Origin: Polytrichum commune
Taxonomy: Eukaryota; Streptophyta; Polytrichopsida; Polytrichales; Polytrichaceae
Direction of reading: 5' to 3'
DNA length: 64,000 nucleotides
NCBI GenBank assembly: GCA_950295325.1
Contig: OX485804.1
Coordinates: 3,906,001-3,970,000, forward strand
Shown here: positions 5,460 through 43,490 of the stretch, piece after piece
Position numbering within the stretch: position 1 is the first letter of the stretch
Layout of the letters: each line of letters begins with the position of its first letter
Position numbers and translations under genes: made by a program
The notes under the pieces: model-generated
The model's database searches: none
The model's input: the letters and a program-made list of their open reading frames with translations, nothing else
Told to the model about the DNA's origin: nothing

Positions 5460-5794
5460 CTTGTTCATCATGAACAACTACCATAGGTTGGTAGTCGGTC
5501 CCCCATAAACTATTTCTAAAAATAAATGTTAGATTATTTAGAAAATGTTAGACACAATTTATTGGAATTACTTGAATTCATTGTATGTTCTTGCTGGAAT
5601 ATGGTAAACTCTCACTCTACACAAGCTTATGTATTTTTCTCCTGTTTAATATGAGATGTTTGGTCACACAAGAAAGTGTTGTATTATTCAAATGTCGTAT
5701 TGTGCAGAATATGACATTTCAGCCTAAAATATTGTACTATCAAGCTTTTTCAAGAAAATGGCCTATTTCAATGTAAAACATCATTTTTGTAGAA

Positions 5795-7490
5795 AGAAAA
5801 GAAGAAAAATTACGCCCGTACATTATACCGGCATGAATGTGAGCCCGTTATCCAAATGTTTAACACGGCGAGCCGTGTTGTCACATAAGGAGTTATGCCT
5901 CTTGTGGGAGGTGGGCTCTGTTAGTTTGTAATGTTCGGTCCCGTTTTAGGGTGGTGCGACGGTATTTTGTTTATTGTCTAGTTTTCTTTTGTTAAGTACA
6001 AGGTATGTTAAGTATTTAATGGCATTTTGGTGTATGTTTTTCATGAGAGTTTTGACGTTAGGTTTTGGTATTTTGAGGTCTGTTAGCCTTGTGATGGATT
6101 GTTCGTGTATGGCGCCTCTTACGCCGGTTGTGATAGTTATGAGGGGGTTTGTTTTCCAGCCTTTGCTCCGTATAGCATTGATTAGTGGGTCGTATTTTGT
6201 ATGTTTTTGTGTGAGTGCTTGTTCCGGGAATCTGTCATGGCAATATGTGAATTCAATGAATTGTATTGTGTGGGCGGGTGAGGGTATAAGGGGTGTTGAG
6301 GCTTGGTTTGGGGCTCCTAGTATACAAAGAATGTCTAGTCGTAGTCTTGCTTGGCATTGGCACTGTGCTTGGGGCATGTGCATTCTAGGAGCCATTCTGG
6401 GACCGTTTGTTGTTGGTTTATGTTATTGAGGTTTCCTGCATTTGTTAATGTGTAGTATCTTGTGTGTTTGTTGGCTTGTAGTGTTTGAGTGATGAAGTGA
6501 ACCGCGTTGTTGTGGCGGGCTATTCTTAGGCCTTTTAGATAGGGATGTTCGCACATTGATAGTAGATGGGGCCATGTGTCTCTATCATTTTTGTAGCATA
6601 GTGTGCAATTGGGGTTTCGGAATTTGAGGGGCCAAAAAATGTTTTTTCTGTGGTTACCCATATATTGGGAATTTGTGTTGGGCATGTGTTTTTTCTCGGT
6701 TGGTGTGTTCTTTTAGTATGAATTTGTGAATATTTCTGATAGCTCCATCGTGGGTGGCGGTTGGGCAACTTGCTAGCCAGTAAGGTGTGGCGTGTGCCAG
6801 GTGGATGTGTGGATGTGTGGGGTGTTGGTTGGTTTTTCTTGGAGGTTTCCTTCGTTGGCTAATATGTCCGCTTTTTCGTTTCCCACAATTCCTATGTGGG
6901 CTCGTACTTTGTGGATGTGGATGGAGTGTGGGGTCCAATAGATTTGGTGTATTATGGCTGCTGTGAGGAGTTTATCGGGGCGGTGATGTTGTGAGGTTGG
7001 GCGTTGTATATGGTTGTTAATTAAGTATATACTGTTAAGGCTATCTGTGAATGTGTGTGTGTCTATTTGGGTAGTTTGTATGGTTTTGACCGCTATGAGT
7101 ATGGCGTTGAGTTCTGCTCTGAGTATGTTTTGGTATCCCGGTAATCTCTCTGAGATTTGGATGTCTTGGTGGGGACTATATACTCCGGAGCCGGCCGTGT
7201 TGCCTATTATTCGGCCTTCCGAGTTTTTTGATGGGGGGATGAATGACCCGTCGATGTACATGCATTGTTGTGGTTGGTATTTAGGGGGATGTTGGGTGTA
7301 GTATTTATTTGGTAAAGGCATTGGAGTGGTGGTTGTTGTTACGGGAGTATCTATTTTGGGAGCATTTTTCCATGTATTTGAGAATTTGATATGGTAGTTT
7401 GGTGTAGTGGGTTTGATGGGGTAGGTGTCAATGTGTGTGTTAGTGGTTAGTTTTAGTGCATGTGTGAGTGCGGGGGGGGGGGGTTTAGGT
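5795..7490 (-). mobile_element. LINE copy 1: RNase H, zinc knuckle and R2-like endonuclease; 5'-truncated
   Basis: Reading minus, a ribonuclease H domain comes first (about 7270-6850) with its acidic residues visible: YIDGS, RAELNAI, FTDSLNS, GNEKADILAN. Next is a CCHC knuckle of spacing C-x2-C-x9-H-x4-C (CTLC ... WPHLLSMC, about 6600-6540) and the RHNNAV motif. The endonuclease core (about 6340-5950) has an RLD then IEF pair where the PD...E residues of the R2 restriction-like endonuclease are expected. The C-terminal domain ends near LNKRKLDNKQ. No reverse transcriptase is present, so the copy is 5'-truncated at about 7490. It also carries several frame breaks and, against copy 2 (39020-40636), an internal deletion of about 115 bp before QYMGNHRK. 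The 3' end is a structured UTR followed by a T/C-rich tail rather than poly(A). Confidence 0.8.
5841..5918 (-). other. conserved 3'UTR RNA fold of LINE copy 1
   Basis: On the LINE transcript, GAGCCC and GGGCTC (5913-5918 and 5841-5846) can close a branched fold. Inside it lies the hairpin AACACGG-CTCG-CCGTGTT (5862-5879). The same fold is present in copy 2 with a compensated base pair, which suggests the structure itself is selected. R2-type elements are known to have structured 3'UTRs recognised by their reverse transcriptase; that role here is inference. Confidence 0.55.
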
Positions 7491-7854
7491 TCGGTGCTAA
7501 GTGTGTTTGGCTATGTATACAAATTATTGAGACGCATTTATCATTTTTGTATACACAATGAAGACGCATAAGTATGAAAAAGCATTTGTATTAGAGAAAT
7601 ATGCTCACAACATCATACAATATGGAGTTTGAACAATATTATAGTCCCATGTTGATGTCTTCACCATATCACACACTACAAAAGTAAGAATCTATTTTAT
7701 TTTTCTGATGATGTTGGAATTTGAAGTCTTGCTCAATTTAACCATAAAGGATTGCATGTTCGTCACATCTAGAACTAAAACTCCAAAGGATACTAAGATT
7801 TGATAGTAATTGGGCATACTCCTGGGCTTGAGGAAGCTTGACTATTGGTGTTGT

Positions 7855-13570: not shown

Positions 13571-15620
13571 TTACTGTTTACAGGCCAAATCAAGTCTGCT
13601 TTCCTCTGGAAGTGTAGGGTTTCTACACAATTTCTGAATGTCCACATAACCAATCAGGGCATTTTCGAACGAGGCACCCTCCAAATTGGCCCCCTCAAAG
13701 GTCGATCCGGAGAGGACGGTGTTGATAAATTTCACACCCCGCATGTCCGACTTGTCAAACGCAACTCTGTCCACCACAGCGTTTGTGAAGTTCGTCTCTG
13801 CACACACATTTCCATGGCAACACTGTCAGACTTTGAAACATAATTGCAGGCCTGTGGGCCTGTGAACTGGATTGATAATTGCTTGCAAAAGCTAACTTGG
13901 GAAGAAGATGTTGTCTAGACTAGTATGTATGAAGATGTGGAATTATTATTCTTAATAAACTCCCAACATGTGGTATTTTATTACCTTTGAAGCTCGCGCC
14001 AACAGCGTATGCCTTGGACATAACAACGTCTGTTAGGTCAGCCCCATCAAACTTGGCATCCGCCATCAAAGCAGCAGACAAGGTTTTGCCCTTGAGGTTT
14101 GTGAGATCATTGGAGAAATCGCAAGACCGCAGATCAAGAAGTGTGTTGGCAACACCATTTGCCTGACCAATAGTGTTTCCTACAAAGGCTCTCTCGCAGC
14201 GGGCTGGATCATTTGACAATGGTGGCAACCTAACCTGTGTAGGAAATCATGCAGTTGTCAATATTAAAACTTCCTATCTGTCTTCTGAAAATGTTAAAAT
14301 TCTTTCATTGCTCTGTACAGATGGTGGGTCGTGAATCACCAGACGTAGTAAATTCGAGCATCATCGTACCAATATTAAAATATATAAAATTTCCAACTAA
14401 ACTCATTGAATTCAAGTGGTCAGCTTGACCAGAGGGGGACCAGAGTCAACAGGATTTCTTCGATCTCTTCAATCATGCGCGAGGGATAGTCCAGAACAAG
14501 TCTTTACGTCGTCTAATCTTGATGGAAATTTAATGAAGCTTCACATTAAGTAATTCTCATGTCTTGAGCAAATCAGTTCAGAGCAATTCCCAAGCAGTAG
14601 CATTTGTGACATGAAAATGCTCACCTGGTTGTTTTGGGCTGCAAGGGCTGGTGATGAGGTTGCCAGAGAGATGGATAGACAAAGTCCACAGGCAACGTTT
14701 CTCAAAGTCTCCAAGGTGGATGCTGATTCATTCGAGTCCCTAGTTCCCCCTGTGGAACGAATTTTGACCAGATATTCCCGTGATTAGCAAAGAGGTACAC
14801 TCCATTCACATCTGTGTAAAACCATCAATTCCACAGCTTCCTATAATTTTGCAACTCCATGAAATCTATTTGTATACGTTGATGAGCGAAGAGCACTCCA
14901 CCATTCTGTTTAGAGCTGAATTCTTACAGACACAACTTTAGAAGAAAGGAAACAAAATTGAATGTGCAGAACTTTGCACTAGGGCATTCAGGCAACTTCT
15001 TCATAAGCAACATACGAAGAGAATGTAACAACACCCTCTCGAAATCTCAACCACATCGAATTCTCACAAGAGCACTGGACGAGGGGGAAAGAGACGCTCG
15101 ACGAAGACGCTCCATTCTTGGAGCTTTTGCAGCTGTTCAAGCTGTGATGCACAGTCCCGCCCTGGAAACCCAAGATTTTACACATGAATCCTGGCTCTTC
15201 AACATTCATCAACGACAAAAAAACACAACAGCGAAATCTCCAAAGATAACCTTCTTTTATTATCCACCCTGCTTTTAAAAAGTTTAAGCCAAAACCACAC
15301 CAAGGCCCCATAACCTACATTGCCAAATTGCAAATTCCATAACCCAGAATGGCACTGAATCCAATGTGGATAATTTCTGACATGGAGCTCAAAGCACAGG
15401 AAACCCCCCATAGGAAAGAAAACCCATCGGCAGGAATGCTTGGTCCTTGCCATGTGATGTAATTGCAACCTCGATAACCCAGAGTGGAATTGGAGGGATT
15501 TTTTGAGCGAGAAGATGTGAGGTGTGATGAGCAGAGGTGAATTGGTAGGGTAAGAGGAGTGACCGTGAGGAGGTTGTCCTTGGACAGCGTGGAGACGGAG
15601 GCGAGCACGGAGGACGCCAT
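13571..15620 (-). CDS. TL17: thylakoid lumenal 17.4 kDa-type pentapeptide-repeat protein
   Basis: Four exons on the minus strand: about 15620-15470, 14749-14625, 14234-13985 and 13797-13571. These sum to 753 nt, 250 residues, with phases 1, 0 and 1 agreeing at the joins. The first donor could be at 15470 or at 15479; both keep the frame. Exon 1 is a Ser/Thr-rich chloroplast transit peptide (MASSVLASVSTLSK). Exon 2 ends in a hydrophobic lumen-targeting segment closing with ATSSPALA before AQNNQ, an AxA thylakoid cleavage site. Exons 3 and 4 are the mature protein: RLPPLSNDPARCERAFVGNT, then pentapeptide repeats of the A(D/N)LxX type (AKFDGADLTDVV, ANLEGASFENA), then VDIQKLCRN. The match to Arabidopsis thylakoid lumenal 17.4 kDa protein (At5g53490 as I recall it) is close along its whole length. 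The biochemical role of this lumen protein is not established. No internal stops. Confidence 0.9.
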
Positions 15621-18399: not shown

Positions 18400-20160
18400 G
18401 TCAATCATCAGGTTCGGAAATAGGGCGGATATAGCAGGTATTCATGGAGTTATAATATCAAGTTAAGGGTATAATCAAAGTCCTTGTCTGAAAAGTTACA
18501 TACGATGAGTCTTGCGTAGGAGATTTCGACACACACATTAGCCATACAACTCCGGGAGCATCAATGATCACCAGGTTCAATATCAGATGAGGACCGATGC
18601 ATGGGTTGGGTGATCATTGATGACCCTGGAGTTGTATGGTTATTGTACTGAATGGTGTCTGAAAATATATCATGTCGATCACAGGTCCGGTGAATATTGA
18701 TGTTCATGGAGGTATAAAGCTATGGTTGGTGTCTGGAAATTGCGGAAGGATGTGGAGGGATGGGGGCGAGATCCGGACTCAATCTTCCTGAGGGCCGATA
18801 TTAGGCTGCAGGGCTTAGGCAGGTCCGGTGATCTGTGATGGTCATGGAGTTTTGAGGGTATTGTCTAATCAAGTAGCAGGGTGATATGGGCATTGATGTG
18901 GAGATAATTGATTAATTGTGGTCTGGCATTGACCCACGCTCAGATTTTATGGCTTGCCAAACCAGACTCGTGTAACAATTCATAATTCATCAAATTGCAT
19001 TGCAGATTCAGAGCCCTCGTGGTATCTAGTTTACTGAAATTCGTGTGGTCTGTGCTTTGCAAGCAGCATAGTGTTTAGTGTTACCTAGTATTGTTCAATT
19101 GCAATTTGCGTGTCATTCAAGACACAGAAGTTTTGGGGGAATCTTTGGCACAACCATGTGAGGACCGAGGTTAGGGCCGAGGCCTGGTGACCATTGATGC
19201 TCATGAAGTTTTTATGGCCATTTACGAGTCGGTGTCTATACTCAATGACGTGTTAGGGTGGTGGACGAGATTGTGGGAGACTCGAGACCGGAGTCGTGAA
19301 TTCGTAATTCATCAAACATGGCCATTTGTGTGGTTCTGTGCCTTGCAAGTACCATAGCGTTCGGTGTTACCCAAGTTAGTAGTCTTCAGCTGCGAGCCAT
19401 TCAAGATACAGAGGTATTGGAGGAGCCTTCTACACATCGACGTGAAAGCCGATGTTAGAGCAGGTCCGATGACCATCGATGCTCATTGAGTTTGATGGCC
19501 AACAATGTCGGTGCCTCAAATCAATCAATCATGTGGCAGGGCGTTGGAAGGAGACTGTGGGAGGCTCGAGAGAACGGGAGTTGGGCCTTCGGTTGCGTGG
19601 TCTGTTATCTTTGGCTTGCCAAATCAGACTTTAACAATTCGATTCCATCAAACATGGCCGTTTGTGTGGTTCTGTGCCTTTGCAAGCACCACAGCATTTT
19701 GTGTTAACTAGTGATCTTCATTTAAGATGCAGAGGTTTTCGGAGGGTCGTCAGCCCACCCACGTGAAGGCCAATGTTAGGCAGGTCCAGTGACCATTGAT
19801 GCTTATGGAGTTTGATAATCAACGACGATGTCGGTGCCTCGATTCAATCATATTGTGCCAGGATGTTGGGAGGAGAATCGAGATTGTGCCAAGAGGGTCA
19901 AGACCCGGAGTAGTCGATTACATAGTTGAGCGTGAAAGCAGATCATTAGTATTCAGCTGCGAGGCATTCAAGATACAGAAGTTTTCAGGGAATCTTCGGC
20001 ACACCTACGTGAGGACCGATGTTAGGCAGGTCCAGCAACCATTGATGCTCATGGATTTTGATGGCCAACAATGTCTGTGCCTCGATTCAAACACATTTGT
20101 GGCAGGATGTTGGGAGGAGAATCGAGATTGTGCCAGGAGGCTCGAAAACCGAATATGTCG
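18400..20160 (+). repeat. degenerate tandem array upstream of the fusion gene
   Basis: At least seven diverged units share a phrase like AGGTCCRGTGACCATTGATG, seen near 18691, 18829, 19189, 19471, 19791 and 20037, with two more degenerate ones before. In the last units it is followed by ATGTCGGTGCCTCGATTCAA and GGATGTTGGGAGGAGAATCG. Other unit parts share ATTCAAGATACAGAAGTTTT and GAGGACCGATGTTAGG. Spacing of the best-preserved units is about 246-320 bp. The array stops about 20 bp before the TATA box of the fusion gene. A stray unit piece occurs in an intron near 24710-24780. Units become more alike toward the right. It could be a promoter-proximal satellite or the remains of an old amplified element. 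Confidence 0.6.
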
Positions 20161-20178
20161 ACTACGTAAGGTTAGGTG

Positions 20179-20609: not shown

Positions 20610-23600
20610 ATGGAGGCATCATCCGCAGCGGCCTCCGAGGCCGTCCCTGACAATGTAAGGCCCCGTGGTCGATCTTGGTCCCATCTGTTGTCAATTATGG
20701 TTCCTTTTGGAGGTGGGTTTGGCGGAAAGGCTAATCGGTGTCTGAGGTTCGTGGGAGGTTGGCATTGGGGTGATCGGACTGCAATGCAATGCAATGCAAT
20801 GTAACGCAATGCGCAGCAGGGTGGAGCTCAGGGAGAGGTTTCTGTGGGGAAAGAGGGAGAACAATAGGTCGGGTCGGGTTGGGTTGAGTGAGTGGGGCAA
20901 GAATTTGGGATGTGAATATATATATAGCTTGAGGTTTTTTGTGTGAAGGCCATGGGGAGGTTTAAAGTTCTGATCGGATAGTGCCCGAGGTTGAGCTCCT
21001 CGATAATTATTAACATTTTAGAGAACTACAAATTCTGTTGGTTCAAGCTGGTTATTTTGTAGCTGTCAGTTACGTAGTTTTTATTGTGAGGAAAGAATGA
21101 AAGGAGGAGAGAAGCAAAGTAAGAGAGCAAGGCATTGGGTTGTGAGGTTGAGTGAGGCCGGGGTGTATGTAATTAGGTTGAGATCGGACATCCAGCTGTT
21201 ATTGAGATGCAAGCGGTCGCAGTCAGGTGGAAATCGACAGAGAGAGCGAGAGAGAACGCCCAAACCACTTTTCCCCCGGTGCTGCAATTACCGTAAGGTT
21301 GGGGGTTTCGGTGCGATTAAAATTACTGGGTTCGCATTACGTAGAGGACGTGGAGGTTAAAAGAATTGCATAAAGATGGCTTAGGTTATTCCTTCAGCTG
21401 AAGCCGAGGAGGGGGAGAGGGAGTGAAGCAAACATATATGGAGGATTTTTTTCACCAGGGTGATCTTGATTTTATATCAGAAAGCTATTACACTCTTTTT
21501 GGTAGTTGAGACCGAGACCGGATCTTCATTGAAGAAGCAGAAGAGGAGATGATGGCTGAATCTCTTTCTGTAAGGGTTTGATTCGAAATGTAGCTCTTTA
21601 AATGAGCCTCTGTATTGAGTTCTTGGTTTCAAGTTCCAAGAAAACCCGCTTCTGTGTTCTGGGCTTGACAAAAAAGAAGTTGTTGATGTTGAGGTTTACT
21701 CACGTTTTGTTCTCTTGTGGATTTCAGGAAAATGGGGACGCTAATGGGGACACTTGTATGGGCACCAGCTTGGCAGGTAGGTAACGTTTTGCATGTCATT
21801 TGTCCTATGGTCCAGATATTTTAATGCATTGCTACTCTGTCAAGAGCAAGGTTGGAGAGGACATCTCGTAAAAATAAGATGATAACAATGGGCGGGAAAA
21901 TGTTCGCTAATTATCTGAAGATCAGAGAACACTACATCGACAATAAGTGGAATTATTAGGAGTTGAAGGCATTTCTCTTTTCTCCTCCTTTTCTTCCAGT
22001 ATTTTAGTCTTCTCAGTGAGCTTAGTTGCTGCCAAATTTTCAAATATCAATACTGACTGGAATTAGCGAAGCCCTCCATGCCGTTGACTGAAATGTCATA
22101 AAATTGTGTAAACAACAAACAAGTGCGAGTTTATTCCTCACTAAATCATTCCAACGTGGAAACCTTTAGATTATGAACTTCTCAGTTATTCCCAGCAATG
22201 CATTTGGGAAGAAATAAATTAGCCGGACCTTAAAGAGGGCATCCGCAAATCAGAAATTATGAACATTGTTCAGCTGATATTTCACTGGTGCTTATTACTC
22301 TGGTTTGCTAATGCGATGATGATGTCTGCCAGCTTATCAATCAGCCACATCACCATGAGCTAAAGTATTGCAAAAGTTGAATAGCAAGATCTGACAAATG
22401 TCTTGGAGCCAACTGGCCAGGGGAAACCTTAATGAGAAGTTAGACTTTGAGTTTTAGTAAGAGCCTCAGTACAGACCTATTTCAATGCAATCTTAGGAGG
22501 TGAGATCTGTCTGTCATATAAGTGTGTATTTCCAAAATCCATATGCCGGTTTTGTACATGTAGTCTTAGTTTCAATGCTGGGTGCTCTTATGGCCTAGTG
22601 ATTTAAGAAGCTGAATTGATTTTGCAGAGGTATTTGTATCTCTGAAGTTGTAATGTACAAGGGTAGATTTATAGTATTTTGCAAGTGCGCAAGAAACCCA
22701 GAAGTGAAGTTGTCATTTTTTTTTGTTTCTAATCTATATGTGATGGAGAGGTCAGGGCGTGTCAACTAGGCAAAAATTTGTACGATTTGGTTTACCATTG
22801 ATGGTGGAACAAGAGACATTGATTCAGACACAAATTTTACACAGGACACCAACCTGTTGGTCCTCTCTGCTTTAGGAAGAAAAGAAGAATGGATTAGGGA
22901 AGAAAGATATCGACGTGTGCAGTATAAAGAAAGTAAATAATAGTAACTAAATCTTAGAGACGTCACTACACTCAAATCTCTTCCATGTCAAGATGCACAT
23001 GCACATCTGTTTTTGCTTCCCAGAACTTGCAGATTTGTATGCACATGCACTAGTATCTATCCACCTCAATACATATGGCAAGACCTGAAATGTAAATGAA
23101 CAGAAAGATCAAATTATATTGAAATGCATACTCGGTGCAGTTCCTGGTTGTAAGGTATGGAAGGATAAAAAAGTTGGAACATGGAGTCAAGGTGTGTATC
23201 AGAGTTCTTATTTGGATATCGTCAATAATTTTGAATAGATCTTTGTGATAATCATTGGTTCAATGGGACTTGTAGCTGTGAAACCATTTAATCAAATAGA
23301 AATTGATTGAGGATTCTACTCTGATGGTCACAGGAGTGAAGAGAGAGTATGCAGACGTTGATAACAATGATGAGGAGTCCAATCCTACAAAAAAGGTCTA
23401 CTTCTCTCCCCAGATTATTGCGACACCGTGTTGGAACCTTTTTGTGTGTAATGTTTCTATGTGGGTGTGTGGGTTACACCTTTTAATCATGTACTTTTAA
23501 GAAACCTCATAATGAGCATCACTTTGAGTGTGATCAGAAGCACTTTTGTGCAATGTGAGTCTTCATATCTCAATCTCACAGTTAGATAATATCTATACAT

Positions 23601-26600
23601 TTTCGTCAGTTGCATTCTCATTGAGGATTGGTTGGAAACCATGAACATTTCGACATTCAAAGTGAAAGATGAGCTTTTTGAGATAAAAAATCTGAGGCGT
23701 CTTGTTACTTGCCAACAGATAAATTCTTCTGATGGACCTACCAGTGATAATGCCATCACCACTAATTGCACAACAGAGTCCAGGTACCTATGCCCTCTAG
23801 AATGTGTTCACTTAGTATACACAAAGGAAGCACACATGACACTGGTTTTGTTTTTGATATTTCATACCTATAGGTGAAGGCTGCCATACCCACAATATCT
23901 CAAATTTTGAGTATCTTTCATTAGTTAAATATCTCTTGTCACTCACCTTCTAGCCTTGTAGATGTGATGGTTGCCATGTGTTTGGGATGTTCTGTTACTT
24001 GTCAATCCCTTTAGATACAACAGTCAAACTAATAAACACCAACTAATAATTGTTGGCTTACTTGATGGTTTGGATATTTCAGCTTGGATGAGCGTGACAG
24101 CACCATCGCTGCTTTAAGGGTATTAGTCTACTTACTTTTAGCTCTTTTGAAGCCTGATTTGGGCCTCTCGTATATACAGTATTTTGAAATTGTACAACAT
24201 GAATATAGATTGTGATGTGAATTTTTGGTAGATAGTGATAGGTTGTGGACTTGCAAGATTATTCTTCTTGACACTTGAACACAAAGTAATTTGGAACTTG
24301 TCTGATGAAGATTTCATATCAACCAGTGTAAAGAGAGAATAATCAACATGAACATGTTAAAGTGCTGAGAAGTTAAGCTCCAGCTGAAGCTATTGTGCAT
24401 CAAATCTGCATCCTCTGTGGCTATGTACCCTCAGGCTTAAAATATATAGTGGTGGATTGTTGGGATGCATGTACTGGTCATCTGCAGACATCTCTCAGCA
24501 CAGCAAAGGAGGAGTTAGACAAGTGGAAGAATACCTTCACCAATGACTCTCTTCTACCCTGGGGAGATCTTGCTGGTACGAAAACAAATTGTGTCCTTGC
24601 ATTTATCTTGAAGAAGTAGTGTTAATCAAGAAGTCATGTGTAGGGCCATAAATTCGCCAAATAAGTTGACCCATGGCCCTAACCAGTTAACTGACATTTG
24701 TGTGATACTGTGCTTTGCAAGCAGAATAGACTTTTGTCTTAGTAGTGTTCAGCTGTGACCTATTCAAGTTCGTGCAGTTTTCATTGTATGACTGTATCGC
24801 CACTTTTTCGTCCATCTTTGCCTTGAGGTGATAGAGCTGAAACTGACACCTCAATTGTTGCTATTTCTTCAGATCCATCAATGGTTATTCAGCTGCTGCA
24901 AAAGCTTCAAGCTTCAGAGAGTCACCTGAAAGAGCAGGTCAGCTTACCAGGCTGCCAAATGCTTGCCTCTCCACACCTGAATTTGTATAACCAATTCTAG
25001 TTCTTATACATATTTTCTGAAAGGAATTATACCATGAAACTATAGGGATCTGACAGTTACATTATTGATGTGCAGCTTTCAACTGTAATTAGCAGGGAGG
25101 GTGCGTTACGTGTGAAGCTTGCCACCACAGAGCAAGAGGTTGTTGAGTTAAAGGTGATTGAAAACCACTTATTTCAGTCAGGCTGGGTAGCAAGCTCATC
25201 TGAAAGTATAGGAAATAATAAGAGCTTTGAGATGAGTTTCTCAAGAATCCAAGAAAGACAGTACTTTATTGCTACACTGAGTGCTCTCACCTTGTGACCA
25301 CATGTTTTCCCACAAAATTCTACCATCTTACAAAGAGGGAGGAGGGCCAATTTCATGCTCCCATATAAAATGGTGTACATGATACTAATTTCATGAGTAT
25401 AGTTTGACAAAATTACCACTGCTTCCTCTACAGACCTTTGTACAGTTACACTTGGATTCTTGCAGCGTGCATCCCATTATAAATCTCATGCAGATATCTA
25501 CTTTTGTGTGCTTTTGGGGACATTGGGATATAGACCTCTATTACTATGTGCGTTTCCTACAAATTACTTGTATTTTGAGCACATTCTTATATCTGAAATG
25601 AAATTTATCTGGTTTTGCCCAGTGATGCTTGCTGCTGGATGTTGCCTCAGTCATTTACATTACGGGCAGGGCCTGTGGTTGGTTACGTTCAATGCAGAGC
25701 GCAGTGTGTGGTTTAGTGCGTATGACAAACCCATCAAAGGCGACTACACCATCCAAGCAACAGGTTAGCTCAATATATCAATTAGGTTTTCCCTCTACCT
25801 GTATAATCCCATTTTAGTAACATTTTATTCCTTGTATCTTGTTCATTCCTCCTTCCATTACTTCTGCATGTTTTACTCCTGGGACACTAGGCCTGTAGTA
25901 GAGTTATCCTTCAAGTCTCTAAAAACTTGTGGCCCACTTTTGACAATGTATAATATTTAATTAGTGTTCAAGTGGTGTCGGGACCCTCAATCTTGGTGGA
26001 TTGAAGCAGAGGTTTGACTTTGGGCAAGAGATGGTTATATAAAAATGAACATTTTGGCAAACTTTTGAAGGCACCTGAAATGGTGCACCTAAAATGAACT
26101 TCTTGCCAAACTCTCAAGAGCACCATTTTAGGTGCCTTCAAAAGTTTTCCATGATATTCTTTTTTATATAACAATCTCTTGCCTAAATCCAAACACTTCC
26201 CTCTTAAAATAACCAAGATTGGGGGTCTCGACACCACTTGAACACTCCTTCAACATTATAAATTGTCAAAAGTGGGCCGAAACTCCCTACCAAAACATGA
26301 GTTTGGTAGAGAGTTTAAAGATAACTCTATGGTGCTACATACATTTACTATTGTATTTTCCAAGATTCTGACAAGTACATGTGCCCTTCCTTCTCATCAG
26401 CCACGGAGATTGTTACCAAAACCAGCAACCTATGAAGAGTACTTCCACATGAAGGTACCTACCAAAATTTGTAACCATCTCTTAAAAGCTGCATTTTCTG
26501 TCCTCCTGTAGAAAATAGTGCATATCAAATAATATCCTTCTTAATTACTTGTGAATCATTTGTGGCTACTTACATGGATGATCATTTTCCACAGAAGGAA

Positions 26601-29600
26601 CTGGAACCTACAGAGAAGAGGTTGAAGGAGCTGCAAGATAATCAGCTCGCAGTTGTTCAGTTTACCCCACATAACAAGACTTCTTCAAATGGAATTTGTG
26701 GCACAACTCAAATGAGTAATCCTGAGGTCAGCCTTAATGGTACAGGAGGCAAGGTGAGTGCCCCTCTGGAAATCCTATCCTCATTTCAACTTGATTAATA
26801 AACCTTAAGAGTTGGGAAAGTGGAAGGGTGGCTTAAACCCAAGGCCTTAACACAATCCCATGGGAAGTCTGAGGTTAAGGTGCCTAAGGTTGGATTAGTG
26901 TTTGAATAGGTGACCTTCCTAGCACTTAATTTCCAATCCACCCAATCATAGTGGGGTATTTATGTGAACTAAACATTCCACAACCAACCAATTACCTACG
27001 GGCTTGCCCTTGGGGAGATAGTTGCAGGCCGGTTTTTACGTGCCCCCTTCATTCAAGGTGTTCACCCTTGAACAGAGGCAGCAGTCTTCCAGGGCCCTCT
27101 AATTCTCATGGTGCCCATTTCGGAATTACATGTAGACTTAGCCCAATTTGAGAATGAAGCAACATCATAATATATGCCAGAGGCAACATCAGTGTCACCT
27201 TTCTTTCTTTCTTTCTTAGTTTCTTACTTTCTGGAGAAGTGGGGTGGAGATACAAGATTTAGAAGACAACTGATTTTGAATGTCATACCTGAACAGGAAG
27301 ACAATGAGATTCGAGCAATTTGTGCACCACCCATTATCCCCAGGAAGAGGGGGCGGCCAAGGAAAGTGATTGTAAAAGAAGATGAAGACGAGGGAGAAGA
27401 AGCAAAGAAGAATTGGATGGACAGCGAAATTGAAGCAATGATTGAATTACGTTGGGAGATGGAGCCTGAATTCGTGGAGAATGCATACAAGACAGGTACT
27501 GAAGTGAGCTTGCCTTGTGAAATAAAGGATGAAAGGCAGACGTGTCTTAAGTGGACACTTTTCCAAGATTGAATCCTTCTTGTGGGAGACCCTCATCTAC
27601 ACTCAGATTTTTGAGGCACTTGCACATGTATATGTGTGGAGGAAATAGCAAAAGCTTTATACCAATTTGGAGATTATGGGAATCTCCTATAAAAAATTTG
27701 AACAGAAGATTCTTCTTCCCATATATTAGTCATGTAGCGCCCACCCCACCCCCCCATAGAAAACGCTTTTGCTGCTTCAAGCACACTCCCTACCACACAC
27801 TCCTATGTTGAGCCACGCATGTTGTGAGTTTTGGGTGCTCATTTGCCCCAAATAGACCATATTAGAAACTTGTGTTATTGGTGGGTGCACCTACTTTCAA
27901 ATCATGTTACAAGCCTTCATGAGATTAGATGCATGGTAGAGCTTATTCAGTCACATTGTAAGCTAAATACGATTTCGGAAGGTGAATGACCACATTGATG
28001 TTGACTGCCACAAATCAACCTTAAAGTAGGTTTGACATTATTGGAGGTGTTGGATTAAGACACGTCTGCCTTATACTAGATTTCATTTGGTTATGAAAAT
28101 CTTAACCTTCCTTGCCCCCTACAATGAACTGTCCCAATTATCTTTTCCACATTTTCAATCAGCAGTTTGCGAGAACAGCAAACTATAATTCTGAGACATC
28201 AGTTGCAAGGTGTTGACAAATTATGCTTTAGAATTTAACTCCAAAGTAGTGAATCTCCAGTTTGTTACAGAAATTGAAAGCTTGCAGCAGTAAAATTTAA
28301 TTTTTTGATGGTCGTGATGGATTTGTACAACAGGGGTGGACATGTGGTTGAAGCTACAGACTCGTATGGTGACATCAATACCAGGGTTCACAAGATCAAG
28401 CCTGGCTTGCCAGCGGAAATTTAACTCATTAATCAAGCAACACAAAAAGGACATATGTGCAATGAGAGAGTCTGGGCAAGCTCATTATGCATGCAAATTC
28501 TTTCATAGTTTGGATAGATGGTGGCGCATAAATGGGACAGTCATGAAACATGTCACCGGCAGCGGAAACAGTCCGAATCGTCATGTCAGCAACTCTGAAC
28601 TACCTGCAACCAATACCAAAGATGAAGGCGCAAAGAAAGACACAGTTGTGAAAGAAGAAGATGGAGGCGAAGAAGGAAAGAAAAACTGGGTGGATAGTGA
28701 GGTAGGAACTTTGATCGACTTACGCTGGGATATGGAGCCGGGGCTTGTGCAAAACATCTACAAATCAGGTATATGTCCTATAACTTTTAAAGGCCGTGAA
28801 ATTGACTCTTGTGTTTTGAAGAACCCAGAAATGTCCCAGAACTTGTCAACGAACAACCTCGATTTAACAGCAATGGATCTTGAACCAGGACTTAGTGATC
28901 CACATGAATTGGAGTTATAATTTTTAAAAGAGTTAGCATGTGTAAGCTCTACATAAAGATATTTATGGTGGCTTACACCCAAGGCCTTAACCTGGATCCC
29001 ATGGGAACTCCAAGGTTAGGTCACCTAAAGCTGGAATAGTACTTGACTCCCTGGAACTTGATTTCCAGTGCACCCTACCACCTATGATCCACCCAATCAT
29101 ACTGGGGGTATCAAGTTGAACTGGATGTTTTCAACCAACCATGTGGGAACCTAAGGGCTTGCCCTTGGTGGAGATAGGTGCCAGCCGGCTTGTCCACGCC
29201 CATTTAAGGTTTTCACCTTCGAAGAGTTGTCCTGAAGGACGTATAATTTTTGTAATGCCCGGTTCAGGATTACATATAGACTTACACCAACTCAAAAATG
29301 AAGCAACACCACAATTTACACCAGTGGCAACATCGGAGTCATCTTTTTTTCTTTCTTGAAGATCTTTGACTGCTCACAAGTATAGGTTAACCTCAAATGT
29401 TCTTCTGCAGCAGAGGATATGTGGGTGAAGCTACAGGCTCAAATGTCGTCAACAATCCCAGGGTTCACACGGTCAAGCCTTGCTTGCCAGCGAAAGTTTG
29501 AGTCCCTACTCAAGCAACACAAGGATATACTTGCAAAAGAGGCAACAGGGGAAGACCGTCATGCATATAGATTCAAGTTCTACGATCGACACGCATGCAA

Positions 29601-31430
29601 GTTTTATGACAAGCTCAATCAATGGTGTCAAACAGCAGCCAACACTACTAGCCCAAAGGCCTCTCAATTTCCACCTGAAACTAAAGATAAAGATGATGGT
29701 ACAAAGAAAGAGTTGGTTGTGAAAGAAGATCTGGAGGATGGGAAGAAATTTTGGGTGGACAGTGAGGTGGAGCTTTTAATTGGCTTACGCACTGAGATGG
29801 ATTCTGAGTTTACACAACATATATACAAACCAGGTACATATATGCATTACAATTGCAAACGCTGTTGTGATATATCTCAATTACCTTGTAAGTAGCATTA
29901 AAATCTGATTACCTCATCAAAAAGACTCATATTGAAATCAGGTTAGATGGACCTTCAGATGCCCTAAACCATTTTTGACCTTTAATGAGGCTCAAATGTG
30001 CATCACACACCTCTTTGCTGGAGGAAGATGTGGTATTCAGTTTTTTTGGTCATATTGTGAAGTACAAATCCAAAAAATTGTGCTAATTGCAGTTAAAACT
30101 GATTAATTAGATGTCATTTGGTATGTCCAGGGGAGGATCCATGGTCAAAGTTGCAGAATCGCATGTCAGCTGCAATTGAAGGATTTATGAGATCAAGCAT
30201 TGCTTGCCAACGAAAATTTGATTCTTTGCTCAAACAACATAAGGACCTTCGTGCAAAAGAAGAGGCAGGAGAGAATAGTGGGACACTTGCTTTCTATGAC
30301 CGTCATGCATGCAAATTCACTGAGAACTTAAATCAATTCTGCAACATAGGTAGAACAATTGTGAAACATGCCACTGCAAGTGCAGATGACTCCCACATAC
30401 CTCTCGACAGCCTTGAATTAGCAAACGGACTGAAAGAGGATCAATGCATCAAGGAAGAGGATGCTGTAAAAGATGTAGAGGATGGAAAAAGGAAATGGGA
30501 CATTGTGAAAGACGACGATGACGGAGAGGAAGGAAAAAAGAATTGGGCTGACAGTGAGGTGCAGACGTTGATTGCATTACGTGGAGAGATGGATGCCGAC
30601 TTTGTGAAAAATTGGAAAAAACAAGGTGGGTGACATTGTGTTATGCATAGGCTTTTGAATGGAAAATATTTCCTTGATTGTATATAAAGAACTTTCTGCA
30701 TATAAGGCCCTGATAATAAACTAGGATTTGTGTTTCAAGTGTTGAGAAGGTCAAAGTTACATACTTAGCTGGAAACAGGGTCATGGTGCTGTTTCATCAA
30801 TCCACCTGTTGCAAATGTAGACCTTAAACCCAATCAATTTTTATGGAGATGGTTTTATTTGGCATGTAAGAACTTTGAGCAGACCAACTAATTCTTTTGA
30901 TACATTTGGTATGTATTTCTGCAGGAGAAAATATGTGGTCAAAGGTGCATAACCGCATGTTGTTAGAATACCCTGGGTTCACACGTTCAAGCCTTGCTTG
31001 TAAGAAGAAATTCAATAACTTGATGAAGCAATACAAGGAAATACGCTCCAAGGACCTGTCAGCAGAGGCTCGTCTTGGGAGAGGTTTCAAATTCTATGAT
31101 TGTTTGGACCAGTGGTGGCAAAATAATGCAAAGCTTGTTAAACATACCGGTGCAAGTACAAATGAATCTGACCTCCCTGTTGGCACCCTTGTTGAATCTA
31201 CAACGACAATCAAAGTCAAAGAGGATGATGGCCCTAAACTTGAAATTGAAGAAAGCTGCGCTCCAAAATCACAACGGAAGCAAGTCCAAGTGAAGGATGT
31301 CTCCAACATTTATGGAACATTCTCCAAAATGGTAGAGAACAGTACAATCATGGTAAACCACTTTGCCAAAACAAGTGCCCTGTTGGAGAAGATGGATGCC
31401 CATATGGATCGTCTCATTGACAAACTCTAA
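20610..31430 (+). CDS. FIP37/WTAP-like coiled coil fused to AT-hook and four trihelix domains
   Basis: Sixteen exons: 20610-20654, 21728-21776, 23334-23395, 23626-23783, 24083-24119, 24488-24575, 24873-24937, 25076-25153, 25698-25763, 26401-26454, 26595-26753, 27297-27495, 28334-28768, 29411-29833, 30131-30625 and 30925-31430. All are GT-AG and phases agree at every join. The total is 2919 nt, 972 residues. Residues of about 105-265 follow FIP37/WTAP in order: KEELDKWKNTFTNDS, DPSMVIQLLQKLQASESHLK, TEQEVVELKSAV, RRLLPKPATYEEY, KRLKELQDN, FTPHNK. The similarity stops where FIP37 would continue with its C-terminal coiled coil. FIP37 is the scaffold of the plant m6A writer. Residues 303-311 are an AT-hook (RKRGRPRKV). 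Four trihelix domains and a short C-terminal helix follow. Start chosen at CCATGG in good context after a likely leader intron. A nuclear protein linking DNA to a WTAP partner is inference; a mis-joined pair of genes is the alternative. Confidence 0.78.
25931..26278. mobile_element. foldback MITE in intron 9 of the fusion gene
   Basis: Inverted ends GGCCCACTTTTGACAAT, followed inward by AGTGTTCAAGTGGTGTCG and CCAATCTTGGT-like blocks. The arms continue almost to the centre (GCACCATTTTAGGTGCC against GGCACCTGAAATGGTGC). The arms are about 90% alike, so insertion is fairly recent. No target duplication is clear. Just to the right a second small hairpin (AAACTCCCTACCAAA and its near complement, about 26280-26317) may belong to the same element. 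It sits between exon 9 and exon 10 and would form a long hairpin in the pre-mRNA. Confidence 0.7.
26827..27217 (+). repeat. SINE-like intronic repeat, copy 1
   Basis: Begins GGTGGCTTAAACCCAAGGCC and ends in a TTTC-rich tail (about 27198-27217), in the intron before exon 12. Copy 2 at 28967-29357 has the same start, middle (GGGCTTGCCCTTGG) and T/C-rich end. Length of about 390 bp and the simple-sequence tail are SINE-like. I do not see convincing pol III A and B boxes, so the class is open. Confidence 0.5.
27297..31430 (+). other. trihelix-domain exon block of the fusion gene
   Basis: Each domain is split by a phase-1 intron at the same place. The first half (KKNWxDSExxxLIxLRxEM) ends one exon and the second half (DMWxKLQ, PGFTRSSLACQRKF, KQHK, FYDxLDQW) begins the next. 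Domain 1 spans exons 12 and 13, domain 2 exons 13 and 14, domain 3 exons 14 and 15, domain 4 exons 15 and 16. The first two trihelix tryptophans are kept in the domains; the third is Phe (ACQRKF). Domain 4 has ACKKKF, and domain 3 has the most changed second half (EGFMRSSIACQRKF). Linkers are acidic and Lys-rich, as in KEEDGGEEG and KDDDDGEEG. The last exon ends with a helix, HFAKTSALLEKMDAHMD, that may oligomerise. Confidence 0.8.
28967..29357 (+). repeat. SINE-like intronic repeat, copy 2
   Basis: Second copy, in the intron before exon 14, ending in TTTTTTTCTTTCTT about 54 bp before the exon. Like copy 1 it lies just upstream of a trihelix exon. The pair could therefore be two insertions, or one insertion copied along with a trihelix exon. 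The intron before exon 13, between them, shows no copy. Confidence 0.5.
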
Positions 31431-32721: not shown

Positions 32722-34706
32722 TCAATCCCGGCAGCCGAAGCACGTGCAGGAGATGGGGATGAAAGAGCAGAGCCCATAGGGTAAGCCCCGCAGCCCGCAA
32801 CGAATGTTATAGCAGCAGACAGTGGGGAGGCACCACCGCCGTGTTCGGTCGCAGCAAGTGCACGGCGAGCACTGACGGAAGTCGCCTAGCATTCGTCTCG
32901 TCGTCCCGTTCACGACGTGAACCTGCCCGTGGACAAGACCGCCTTCGGAGGAGGAGGCAGGAAACAGCTGGAGTTGCGTCCCATTCGTGAACTTCACCAC
33001 GTCGCTTGTTAGTGGTCTGTTGACAATTGCCTCCCACTCGCCACCCAACCCCTGCAGATCACAAGACACAAACAATGTGAGGATCCATCCCAAACCTTTG
33101 AGATCACAGTACACGCACAGTGTGAGAAATCATCCCCAAACCCTTGAGATCACAATACACAAATAATGTGACAATACATCCCAAAACCCTTGCAGATTAC
33201 AGTACACGAACAATGTGACAATCCATCCCCAAACCCTTGCAGATTACAGTACACGAACAATGTGACAATCCATCCCCAAACCCTTGCAGATCACAGTACA
33301 CAAAGAATGTGAGATTCCGTCGCAAAACCCGTATTAATTACAGTTAACGAACAATGTGAGAATCCGTCCCCAAACCCTTGAGATCACAGTACACGAACGA
33401 TGTGAGAATCTATCCTGAAAGCCCTGCAGATATCACAGTACAAGAACAGTCCAAGAGTCCATCCTGAAACCCTTCCGGTTATGCAGACTGAACTTTCATA
33501 CCATGTTTCCTTTCCCAACTGGAACGTGTCTACACTACAAGACTGACTTCAGGGAGGCAGTGTACATTTGTCACATGACCTATCTGCTCTCTGGGATGAG
33601 AACGGCAATCGACCGTCTGCCCTAACTCCGCCTCCGAAGCTATGTCAAATGTCAGCAAACCACTAGAGTGAACTGAGAGTTGGCAACATTGGTTGCCTCT
33701 TGTGTACATATCATGCAGCCATGAGTGTGGCATGGTACTTGCACCATCTAATACTGCAGTTTCATTGCCTTCATGCAACCCATATCACCTCCGAAGCATC
33801 ATGGTGGCAAATTTCTAAATTGAGACACCAAACCTCCTGTTTACTTAGCAGGAGTTCAATGCAACTAGAATAACAGCCATAGCTAATGCCAAAACTATTT
33901 CTAACCACTGCACTCCATATCCCTTCCATGCAGACTGCTAGGTGCTCAAAGTTATCCTATTGAAAGATGTACAACCATTTGTTGTTGAAGGCACCTGGCA
34001 ACCTGAGTATATGAAGTGATTTAGAATGTCACAAATGAGGTCGCAAAAGAGGAAGAGGTCACAAATGAGATGTTTCTTACCTCTTGTTCTTGCGTTGAGA
34101 GGGCAGCCGCCGCACCTGCAACCACAAACATAGGGTTAGGCACAAGCTACTAGGAAACCTTGGGTCCACGAGAACAAACAAACTCCCACTGAACAAGGGA
34201 AGGCTGCGAAGTTCAAACAATGCGAGTCCTCGGTGATCTGAACTGAGCTCCAGCTTTTTCCTATTACACGAAACGTAGGCGAAGCCGAACCTAACCTTGC
34301 AACTACTATGTAACATTGCAATATGTAACATTCTTAAGTCGAACCATCCAACCATGAGCTGTGGAGAGCAGTAGAACAAGATTACAACTCCACAAAAGGA
34401 CCTAAATAGTTAGTCTAGCTAATGAATGGAACTTTAGTTAACTTAGTTCCATTTACATGGAACCTCGCATATTGCACAACAACGTCATTCAGACACAAGA
34501 CTGTCGCAACAACCAAGAGCCACACGACCTAAAACCGAAGCTTTTCTAGCACTTTCAGGACAACTGTCGCGGCTTCGGAATTCTATCAACCTGCACACGT
34601 ATATTCATCCGAAAGAGTTCGGGAGGCGTCCTTTTCCAACTGCTAGCTACTCTTGTGGGAGTCAAGCTCCCAGGGATATGAAATTAGTAGAGTGAGACTC
34701 AGTACA

Positions 34707-38827: not shown

Positions 38828-39019
38828 ATTCCTGCTTCACACTATGTTTGAGGGACCAATGGAGTGTGTGAATGCAAGATGGATGTAAAGTCTACATGGA
38901 TTCCTACATGGCATCAAATGGATCATGTTTCATGGTCACTTGGACTATTTTCAACAACCACTGCTTGGAGGTAGACCTAACACAAAACCGGGAGACTATG
39001 GCGCTCCGAATGATGAGAA

Positions 39020-40636
39020 TCACAAGAAAAGAAAAGAAAAAATAACGCCAGTGTTATATACCGGCATGAATGCGAGCCCGTTAGCCCTGCATTGATCACG
39101 GTATCCCGTGATGCAATATAGGGCGTTATGCCTCCTTTGGGAGGTGGGCTCTTGGTTCCATACTATGTTAGTTAGTTTTAATTAAGGTGGGGGGACAGGG
39201 GTTTGTTTGTTATCAAGTTTCCTTTTGTTTAAGACAAGGTAAGTGAGATATTTGATGGCATTTTCATGTAGCTTTTTCATGAGGGTTTTAATGTTGCTCT
39301 TTGGGATTTTAAGTTTGGTTAATTTTTCAATGGAGTGTTCGTGGATAGCTCCCCTTACTCCGGCTGTGATGGTAATTAGTGGGTTGACTTTCCATCCGTT
39401 GTTTTGTATGGTGTTGATGAGTGGGTCGTATTTGGTGTGTTTGTGGGTGAGGGCTTCGTCCGGGAATCTGTCGTGGCAGTATGTGAACTCGATAAATTGT
39501 ATTGTGTGTTTGGGAGAGGGTAATATGGGTGTGGATGTTTGGTTGTGGGCTCCTATAATGCACAGTATGTCTGGTCTTAGTTTGGCTTGGCATTGGCATT
39601 TCGTTTGTGGGCATGTGCACGTTAGGAGCCATTCGGGTACTGTGTGGTCTTGCGGTTGGTTGTTGAAGTTACCCGCATTGACTACACTAAATAGGTAGAT
39701 TAGTGTTAGATGAAGATTAGTGTTAGAGCCAATAGTTACCCAAAACACTAAATGCCACTTGAAAGTACAATTAGTGTTACAATTTCCTTTGTCTTTATTT
39801 TGCATTGTCAAAGTTGAGTTCCATTAAGTTTAAATTTTGTAATATCAAATTCCTAGCATATTACATTTTCTATGAGGCTCACATATTCTACCTCCAATTC
39901 TTCATTTGAAGATCTACAAAAAATGTCATCTAACACTAAATGCGCTTTTGTAAATATTCAAAGTTACTAATTGGTACAAATAGTGTTAGAGTTGACATTT
40001 AGTGTTCTAACACTATGAAGACAATTGACATTTAGCGTTTTCGTCGACTATTAGTGTTTCCAACACTAATCTACCTATTTAGTGTAGTGTAAAGAACCTT
40101 GTGTTTTTGTTGGCCTATAGTGTTTGGGTTATCAGGTGGACGGCCTTGTTGTGTCTTGCAATTCTTAGCCCTTTTAGATATGGGTGTTCGCATGTGGATA
40201 GAAGGTGGGGCCATGTGTCTCTGTCATTTCTTTGGCATAGTGTACAGTTAGGATTTTGGTATTGGAGGGGCCAGAATATATGTTTTCTATGGTTGCCCAT
40301 GTATTGCGCGTATCTAAATTTTAGAGTTTGGGTAATTTGTGTGTCGGGAACCTGTTTGCTTTTCCAAAAGTGATTGGATAGTTTTTGGTTGATTTGTTTA
40401 TTTGATATCCATTTGTTGACGTATGGGTATTTTTGGTTGGCTGATGCACATTCACGGTTTTCATGTTCTTTTGTTATAAATGTGCGGAGGTTGCGGATTG
40501 CTCCATCGTGTGTGCCGGTTGGACAACTTGCTAACCAATATGGGGTGGTGCGGGCTATGTGTATTCGGGGTGTGGCGTCGGGTTTGTCCTGTAGTGTTCC
40601 CATATTGGCTAGTGTATCCGCCATTTCATAATGTGT
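39020..40636 (-). mobile_element. LINE copy 2: knuckle and R2-like endonuclease, carrying a MITE
   Basis: Same family as copy 1. Reading minus it starts inside the end of RNase H (MADTLANMG), followed by a basic stretch (ISNKQINQKLSNHFWKSK). Then come the CCHC knuckle (CTLCQRNDRDTWPHLLSTC), RHNKAV, and after the MITE the endonuclease: LRPD, 26 residues, then E in IEFTYC, then HKHTKYDPL. The RPD...E pair fits the PD-(D/E)XK core of R2-type endonucleases, which is degraded to RLD in copy 1. Both parts on either side of the MITE are open, so this copy is younger than copy 1. The frame ends LDNKQTPVPPP (stop near 39182), followed by a structured 3'UTR and a TTTTC-rich tail at about 39024-39044. 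Reverse transcriptase is missing (5' truncation). Confidence 0.8.
39685..40084. mobile_element. TA-flanked MITE inside LINE copy 2
   Basis: 400 bp with inverted ends CACTAAATAGGTAGATTAGT, flanked by TA at 39683-39684 and 40085-40086. Taking out the element plus one TA makes the LINE flanks align with copy 1 without a gap (24 positions each across the junction), which fixes the ends exactly. TA duplication points to Tc1/mariner-type mobilisation. No coding capacity. Confidence 0.85.
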
Positions 40637-40795
40637 GACAACCCGCATGAATAGAAATTCATTGAAATAGCATTTGGTTGAGGGCCCGGTCACATATGAC
40701 TTCACACTACACTTGAGGGTCCGTGACCACACTACATGATTTTGGAGGTGTCTTGGGACGGTCGAATATGACCATGAGATTGTGAAAACCCTCAT

Positions 40796-43490
40796 AGATT
40801 TTTCTCATTAAATGATCATATAGCGGTTCCTCCAAATTACGGTCGATTATTGAACCTACAGTGGTCTGTGCAAGTAGGTTGCCTTTCTTAATAGGTGCCT
40901 TTTTTATCCATGCAAATTACATAGGGTTAAAACACAAATCACAAAATGTATAACTTTGTTTACTCGTCCGTATAGCAACCACATTAAAAAAAAAATTTAA
41001 AAAAAAATCACTATTGTATTTGTTGTTGTGATGATAAATACTCAAATAGTGTGGATTGTCATAAAATTATTGTGGGACAACCTAATTGCACATATCACTG
41101 TAGAATGACTAACAAACTCCAAACACATGTTGTCTGGACACCCATAATCCAAGTCCACACCTAACACCACACCACACAGAGACATGTGTATGTTTTATGA
41201 TAAGTGAGTAACCAAATTAGCCCCGCTTCAATTAGTACCCCTCTTGGTCACATGTTTGTTTAGCAGAGAGGAAATCATCATACATGAGTGTACCTCTTAT
41301 CCATCCAGCGTAAGAACTCGACCCCTAATATATCCTAATAATTTTGTTGCCGATTCATCTCAAACGACCTCACGTACACTAATTTAGGGTTTGTAAAACC
41401 ACATTGAATTCTCCATATAGTGAGAGCGGGCTCATAATGCATTTGGGAAATTAGTGAAGGTGAAACTAAATTTCTTCAAGCTTTGAAATTAATACCACCA
41501 TAAGATCTAGGGTTTTGAGAGCCCAAAGTGTAACCTCCAGGTTGCATGGTGGATGAATGAGAGGTGCACTCGTAAAGGATGATTTCCGCTCTCCGTTTGT
41601 TTATTGAACTTTCAAAGCTCGGTTCGGCAAGTGGCTAGAGTTATATATGCCACAAGTGAGTACGTTACCCATGGCCTTGGACTCAAGCCAAATACGGCGA
41701 CAAAGGGAATGTTCTCGGTTAGTAAAAGCGATGTCGGCTCATGGTTGGTGGCTTTGCTTGCAAGTGACTCATTCCATCCACTTTGCTCAAGAATGAAGAA
41801 ATTTGGATGAGCCATGGCATAATTGATTGCCTCGGGACAAAAACATATGATATGCAATAGTGAGAACATTCGTAAACTAGTACTACTACCGTGCCTTTTA
41901 CTATATATAAATGGGTTATTTAACAGTTGGGTAGTGGAGGACATTCAATTTATATAAGTTTGGAGGGGGATACTTCCATTTAATGACCATGTATGCAACG
42001 TGTCATCCAATTTAGTGCAATTTACATTCATCCAATCATGTTTCCATGATGTCAAACCTCATGCAGGGAATTGAAGTTGCTTGTAAATGAAGCCTCCATC
42101 CATCGCAAGCGTTAGAAATTGGTCCTCTTTTAAGCTCATTTAAAGAGGAAGGGGGGACATGGGTTCCACTACAAAATTTAGGTGTGGTAAATGATAGGGT
42201 TCTATTTGAAGTTTCAAACTAAAGATCGTTAAAGTTAAGCGATGTCGCGTGCCACCATTGATGGATGATATCAATGCCTCAAAAAAAAAATTAATGATTT
42301 TTTTTAGAGAAATTTAGGGTGATCAAAATTCATTTTAAGAGAATATTCGTTTATTTTAAAAATATTCGCCGAATATGTGGAATATCCCATGAATATTACA
42401 CTTTACACGTTATTGAAGAGTCCCTATGAAAACATCATGGTATCAACATGTAGGGATTGCCCCGAGAAGTCAAATGACATCGTTCAAGCCTTGTGTTGTC
42501 TCCCCCCTCCCTATGCTCTTTGTTTGAGTGTAGACCTTACATTAGGAGACCGTACTAGGGGGTTCTTAAGAAAAAGCTTTAGACTAGCTTGGCCCCCACT
42601 TTGTTTGTGTAGGACGAGGTTGTTTGTGTAGAGTAGAGGCACCCATAACCGACCATAACATAACCATTCTGGTAGGCAAAGCGGCTTACATGGGAACTAG
42701 CCCTTAGAAACTGTAAAACATGGAACCTTATATTAACCACCTATGAAAAGAAATCATCGATATCAATCCCAACCTTATTGAAATTATGGCACCTCATAGA
42801 TTCCCAATGGAGTCTTGATCAGGAATAGGCACTTATGCTCTACATGACCATTTGGCACATGACGTGACGTTTTGTGAGTTTGGGGAAGAGGACACTTTAC
42901 ACATAGCAAAAGTTTCTTCTTCACATGTCCTTAGTTTAGGTTATCAATCGTTGTGATCAAAGGGTTTAGGGAATAAGATACCAAAATGGTTATGTCTAGT
43001 AATTATGCTCGAGCCTCATGGCCCTCGAGGATTACTTCGTTCATAAATTATATAACACCCTAGAAGAGAAGATTCTAGAATCATTGCAAACAAGGTGTTG
43101 CAAACATACATTGGTCTTTTTTGGGTGGTCAATCTATGTTGCCATGCCACCAACAAAATCTTCTAAATTTATCTTGAATTTTAGTTACTTTAGAAATTAC
43201 TTTAGGCCAATGATGGGTTTCTAGTTTTTGGTTGTGTTGCTTTATGGGCATTGCAATGGTGGCACTTTGGCACGTCATGATCAAAGCTAACAAAAAAAGT
43301 GAGCCAATTTGGGAATCCTTGCAACGCCATGAGGATCCACCCAACTCCTTTCACACTCCATGTAGAGGTTGGGTCTAGGATTGTGAGGAGTTGGATATGG
43401 GTGCACACATGGTAGCTCTAAGACCAAAAGTTGGGTGAGTTTTTATTTTTGGGTTCAAGTTTTTTCTTTTGTCTTTCAATTTTTTCCCTA
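40796..43490. other. gene-free stretch
   Basis: No coding frame is supported. Near 41395-41500 a diverged piece resembles the left part of the MITE at 49959-50373 (shared GGGAAATTAGTGAAGGTGA-like sequence). Confidence 0.45.

Follow-up and report, generated by a model that had tools for sequence, protein, structure and literature searches.

Every FIP37 protein examined in PMC6576107 carries a Wtap domain, with a highly conserved domain structure; trihelix domains are single or double among 319 genes (PMC4195496). We describe a gene model from Polytrichum commune, sixteen exons long, that would place part of a FIP37/WTAP protein ahead of an AT-hook motif and four trihelix domains. It occupies positions 20610-31430, plus strand, of the window, by which we mean the whole 64,000-nucleotide stretch of DNA analyzed (contig OX485804.1, positions 3,906,001 to 3,970,000).

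What each half of the protein binds has been described for the human homolog, WTAP. Helices H3 and H4 are essential for binding the METTL3/METTL14 heterodimer, pull-downs place that pair on WTAP itself, and residues Q85, Q107 and R109 contact VIRMA (PMC9652331). Residues 1-149 dimerize, as do residues 1-50, and residues 150-245 form a tetramer, on which METTL3/14 binding depended (PMC13354555). WTAP was also found to form a complex with the METTL3/14 pair in PMC9715571. The papers disagree as to how the pair is held: directly on WTAP (PMC9652331, PMC9715571), or through a bridge of VIRMA, which size-exclusion in vitro found to be needed (PMC13354555).

Our own assembly of the sixteen exons gives one open frame of 941 codons plus a stop, and all 15 introns are of the GT-AG type. 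The original prediction had read these exons as one protein in a single frame, with FIP37/WTAP sequence followed by trihelix domains; that reading is supported by the introns, by two separate homologies, and by the shared frame, but its length of 972 codons, given without exon boundaries, was not reproduced. The alternative frames of the spliced sequence contain 13 and 23 stops over exons 1-11, and 32 and 49 over exons 12-16. Random pieces of intron never matched the open frame in 20,000 trials for exons 2-11, nor in 20,000 for exons 12-16, a test that exaggerates the surprise because exons were picked for openness; homology is the stronger evidence. Exons 1-5 are drawn from frame and splice signals, to which exons 7-16 add homology. 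The features of the gene are as follows.

20610-20654, plus strand: exon 1, residues 1-15; start ATG, GT donor (weak, 82nd percentile)
21728-21776, plus strand: exon 2, residues 16-32; frame and splice signals only
23334-23395, plus strand: exon 3, residues 32-52; weak acceptor, 80th percentile
23719-23783, plus strand: exon 4, residues 53-74; frame and splice signals
24083-24119, plus strand: exon 5, residues 74-86; weakest donor, 64th percentile
24488-24575, plus strand: exon 6, residues 87-116; DKWKNTFTNDS block
24873-24937, plus strand: exon 7, residues 116-137; WTAP H1 region, 6/11 identical to human WTAP
25076-25153, plus strand: exon 8, residues 138-163; WTAP H1 region, 10/26 identical; Q157 corresponds to WTAP Q85
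25698-25763, plus strand: exon 9, residues 164-185; WTAP L1 region, 4/16 identical; Q185 corresponds to WTAP Q107
26401-26454, plus strand: exon 10, residues 186-203; WTAP L1/H2 region, 5/18 identical; R187 corresponds to WTAP R109
26595-26753, plus strand: exon 11, residues 204-256; WTAP H2 and L2 (FTP), 11/24 identical up to FTP; tail without recognizable H3
26754-27296, plus strand: intron 11, predicted fusion junction, phase 0; holds dispersed repeat 26827-27213
27297-27495, plus strand: exon 12, residues 257-323; AT-hook core, trihelix 1 (first half)
27339-27374, plus strand: AT-hook core PRKRGRPRK; Pfam match at residues 271-282, 12.8 bits, below cut-off 17.4
28334-28768, plus strand: exon 13, residues 323-468; trihelix 1 (second half), trihelix 2 (first half)
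29411-29833, plus strand: exon 14, residues 468-609; trihelix 2 (second half), trihelix 3 (first half)
30131-30625, plus strand: exon 15, residues 609-774; trihelix 3 (second half), trihelix 4 (first half)
30925-31430, plus strand: exon 16, residues 774-941 plus stop; trihelix 4 (second half), C-terminal tail

The N-terminal part matches Pfam model Wtap (PF17098), whose curated cut-off is 35 bits. The score is 46.1 bits (E 6.3e-12, residues 143-233) when the whole protein is searched and 50.2 bits (E 3.4e-13) for the N-terminal part alone. The match covers positions 4-87 of the 155 in the profile and so falls short of a complete Wtap domain. Unrelated coil families in Pfam match the N-terminal part weakly, each below its own cut-off (MAD at 7.3e-4, FapA at 0.0084). 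A search of PDB sequences with E up to 1 returned four, namely human WTAP twice (1.8e-6 and 3.4e-6) and two crystal proteins (0.16 and 0.18) whose matches are taken as chance. The phmmer alignment pairs residues 127-235 with human WTAP 55-156, and 36 of the 95 residues aligned in the stretch 127-228, up to the FTP motif, are identical. Its score of 32.1 bits was reached by none of 2,000 plain shuffles and none of 2,000 heptad-preserving shuffles (maxima 7.3 and 10.2 bits; phmmer scored 1,872 and 1,863 of them). Coiled-coil bias as the sole source of the match was rejected by this control of 4,000 shuffles.

The residue blocks of FIP37 named in the original prediction were all found, their order kept, in exons 6, 7, 8, 10 and 11. 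WTAP residues L142, F147 and P149 are retained and W145 is replaced by V, and a short way past the FTP motif the similarity tails off. Together with the partial coverage of the profile, this agrees with the predicted end of the similarity ahead of the C-terminal WTAP coil. Two further alignments drew in part on reference sequence that does not come from a database record, and we take them to be leads only. One places W99 in exon 6 opposite human WTAP W30, and the other, partly through such a FIP37-like sequence, loosely aligns the tail of exon 11 with the start of H3. In the predicted protein, the retained part is H1-H2 of human WTAP, and H3-H4 (residues about 150-245) is missing from the gene model. 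A tblastn search of the window for exons encoding WTAP H3-H4 found none, although with low power; its best match, E 2.4, lies inside a trihelix exon. The conserved start of H3, LMAKCR, has no site with five or six of its six residues in any of the six frames of the window, and the two sites with four of six have surroundings unlike WTAP. Because tblastn had little power, the absence of H3-H4 is judged mostly from the missing LMAKCR and from the way exon 11 leads into the trihelix exons.

The C-terminal part contains four stretches that match Pfam model Myb_DNA-bind_4/trihelix (PF13837) above its cut-off, with E 6.7e-45; the domains begin near residues 293, 438, 579 and 744. Its closest solved structures, with E 5.3e-6 and 1.4e-5, are those of GT-1; PDB entries 2jmw and 2ebi are of this type. 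Domains 1 to 4 retain 19, 22, 22 and 23 of 70 GT-1 residues, with 17 positions identical in all five sequences. All four repeats carry the same residues at the R-S, C, K and L-x-K positions of GT-1, and the third W is replaced by F. The prediction of four trihelix domains is thereby confirmed by profile, structure matches, and residue comparison alike. GT-1-like trihelix genes are typical of plants, and have reportedly been seen in red algae too. A search of prokaryote and viral contigs, collections not meant for plants, with 191 residues of the trihelix stretch gave 8 and 2 pattern matches respectively and no relative. Among the works cited by PMC7154860 is a solution structure of Arabidopsis GT-1.

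The four repeats are 45-56% identical to each other in protein sequence. For each of the six pairs, most nucleotide changes fall at third codon positions (55-70 changes, compared with 29-47 at first and 29-47 at second positions). Nonsynonymous divergence (dN) is 0.32-0.43 and synonymous divergence (dS) 1.4-4.0, which is saturated, for five of the six pairs; dS of the sixth was not computable. That dN lies far below a saturated dS implies constraint after duplication, which says nothing on present expression; the estimate covers the trihelix repeats and not the WTAP half. Every domain is split by a phase-1 intron at the same point, and exons 13, 14 and 15 measure 435, 423 and 495 nt, a pattern such as tandem exon duplication would leave. 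The AT-hook of the original prediction stands as a motif, with the core RKRGRPRK (RGRP) present, but not as a formal Pfam match, its score being below the cut-off.

Splice sites were ranked against every GT (635) and every AG (765) in the region, using leave-one-out matrices built from the same introns. Eleven of the 15 donors (2, 4 and 7-15) and nine of the 15 acceptors (1, 5, 6, 7, 9, 10, 13, 14 and 15) score above the 95th percentile. At the fusion junction, donor 11 (AAG/GTGAGT) is near consensus, at the 98.7th percentile, and acceptor 11 lies at the 92.2nd. The model is weaker at some points. Low-ranking splice sites are donor 5, at the 64th percentile, acceptor 2, at the 80th, and donor 1, at the 82nd. 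Exons 1-5 lie outside the homology, and exon 6 enters it through the lead alignment that pairs W99 with WTAP W30. The tblastn search for H3-H4 was itself weak: the true exon 8 was its best match to the N-terminal half and yet had E 0.30, and the 14 matches listed did not include exons 7, 9, 10 or 11.

Whether the locus encodes one protein or two turns on intron 11, across which exons 11 and 12 join in phase 0. A dispersed repeat of about 390 bp with a pyrimidine-rich tail is present both in intron 11 (26827-27213) and in intron 13 (28967-29357), the copies being 69% identical. The alternative to a fused gene is a truncated FIP37 copy that ends within intron 11, followed by an independent trihelix gene whose start lies near 27.2 kb, or else a dead junction. 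Read-through of donor 11 does reach a stop after 14 codons, at 26796, overlapping an AATAAA at 26797, and an in-frame ATG, the sole one upstream of exon 12 before a stop, is found at 27174. However, AATAAA occurs in the window at chance density (100 on both strands, compared to 92.8 in shuffles), and the five plus-strand copies inside the gene are every one intronic. The ATG at 27174 lies within the dispersed repeat and is not an ATG in the other copy, while a start at the next in-frame ATG, 27417, would lose the AT-hook. The near-consensus donor likewise argues against two genes. A scan for bacterial-type promoters and terminators around intron 11 gave results at chance, from a model not meaningful for a plant. 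The balance favors splicing across the junction over two genes; we regard a single fused gene as probable, and the two-gene or dead-junction alternative as unlikely.

Such a gene may have arisen by the joining of 5' exons from a copy of a FIP37/WTAP gene, via the phase-0 intron, to an AT-hook and tandem-duplicated trihelix gene or exon cassette. Its product would sit on DNA through the four trihelix domains and the AT-hook, and its coil would pair with itself or with FIP37 and might touch VIRILIZER. Lacking H3-H4, the protein would be unable itself to hold MTA/MTB. Any effect on mRNA methylation would then be only indirect, with FIP37/VIRILIZER either placed at chosen loci via heterodimers or drawn off the enzyme. 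We tentatively prefer a mechanism linked in this way to FIP37/VIRILIZER, of either sign, and put it a little short of an even chance. The fullest version of it, in which the trihelix domains pick promoters, the FIP37-derived coil without methyltransferase-binding helices captures FIP37/VIRILIZER, and a transcription factor so sets which nascent transcripts are methylated in a plant lineage, is doubtful.

The original prediction offered two consequences of the fusion, direct recruitment of the methyltransferase to chosen loci and competition with FIP37. The former is not supported, as human WTAP needs H3-H4 to bind METTL3/14 and both are missing here; on either account of the human binding data, the fused protein would not be expected to hold the methyltransferase unaided. 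Competition with FIP37 is possible, because the retained region both dimerizes and contacts VIRMA in human WTAP. The three VIRMA-contact residues of the human protein, Q85, Q107 and R109, are identical in the fused protein (Q157, Q185 and R187) by phmmer, and MAFFT agrees. A number of findings tell against a link to FIP37/VIRILIZER, nevertheless. Two of those three residues adjoin a 6-residue gap in the phmmer alignment. VIRMA also binds WTAP 177-237, where a five-fold alanine mutant (177-203) lost VIRMA (PMC9715571), and therefore the retained half may not hold VIRILIZER alone. A full-length WTAP mutant locked as a dimer lost METTL3/14 (PMC13354555). The interface data are, moreover, all human, and are carried over to plants by inference.

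Two other functions deserve consideration. The gene could encode a trihelix transcription factor in which the WTAP coil, once captured, serves as no more than a dimerization arm, with no contact to the mRNA-methylation machinery. Retention of just the dimerizing half of WTAP, with the methyltransferase-binding half gone, is what such an arm would leave, and the DNA-binding part is the larger, at 685 of 941 residues. The identity of all three VIRMA-contact residues points the other way, if weakly, since the stretch has 36 of 95 residues identical anyway. We favor the FIP37/VIRILIZER-linked explanations over the dimerization arm, which we consider rather unlikely. The fused protein might instead bring MTA/MTB to promoters through its own WTAP part. 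The principle exists, in that WTAP and STAT1 lead the methyltransferase to promoters in human cells (PMC12113268), and a bridge like the one VIRMA formed between WTAP and METTL3/14 in vitro is conceivable if the retained half holds VIRILIZER. Against this stand the missing H3-H4, the loss of METTL3/14 binding by dimer-locked full-length WTAP, and the loss of VIRMA binding on changing WTAP 177-203, residues also missing here. Recruitment through the protein's own WTAP part is very improbable.

Other features of the window lie within and around the gene. Intron 9 contains an imperfect palindrome of 348 bp (25931-26278), 79% identical to its own reverse complement and resembling a miniature inverted-repeat transposable element or fold-back element. 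Degenerate tandem repeats with spacings of 246-321 bp lie upstream of the gene at 19096-20168, and short pieces similar to them occur in intron 6 (24685-24768). Related broken repeats at 5794-7510 and 38834-40804, in the same orientation and 33 kb apart, have a third partial copy at 51317-51904, inverted relative to the second. The minus strand of the first encodes an RNase H domain (6776-7510, E 4.5e-14), and the broken repeats are probably retrotransposon remains. An open frame on the minus strand at 32725-33129, with a DUF7866 domain (E 1e-18), is convergent with the fusion gene, and at its upstream end it runs into a 47-bp minisatellite (33041-33473), with which it overlaps. Another minus-strand frame, at 13923-14246, has pentapeptide repeats (E 3.2e-5) and could, as a guess, be part of a longer gene on that strand. 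Scans of the window with Rfam, at gathering scores, and for tRNA genes gave no matches.

The field has yet to establish how the N6-methyladenosine writer finds particular genes, and the links we found described between the writer and transcription factors involve distinct proteins brought together by a signal (PMC12113268). A natural fusion that shows constraint in at least its DNA-binding half would offer plant genetics a test already made by nature. If the reading is correct, the half of WTAP kept when it was put on DNA is the dimerizing, VIRMA-contacting one and not the enzyme-binding one.

Among the top matches of broad literature searches, weak evidence of absence, no FIP37/WTAP-trihelix fusion was described. 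No paper treating FIP37 together with trihelix was found in a search that most subscription papers lie outside, and the only co-mention of WTAP and trihelix was in a glioma review. The available parts of PMC6576107, PMC11277107 and PMC10950732 likewise hold no mention of such a fusion.

The fused protein resembles FIP37/WTAP in the 36 of 95 identities with human WTAP up to the FTP motif, but it is 941 residues long, follows the Wtap profile to position 87 of 155, and is without H3-H4 and LMAKCR. With GT-1-type trihelix factors it shares GT-1-like Myb_DNA-bind_4 domains; unlike the factors surveyed in PMC4195496, which have one or two such domains, it has four, with F for the third W. Plant RNase J, which bears a C-terminal GT-1 domain, is also a case of a trihelix fused to an RNA-handling protein (PMC7154860). 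RNase J, however, is an enzyme of chloroplasts with a single GT-1 domain, whereas the fusion described here has a partial scaffold and four domains. WTAP and STAT1 offer a further parallel, since there, too, a DNA-binding factor is coupled to a WTAP protein (PMC12113268), but in that system whole WTAP and a separate protein interact upon induction in human cells. Within the literature searched, the combination found at this locus is new, and it is built from known families.

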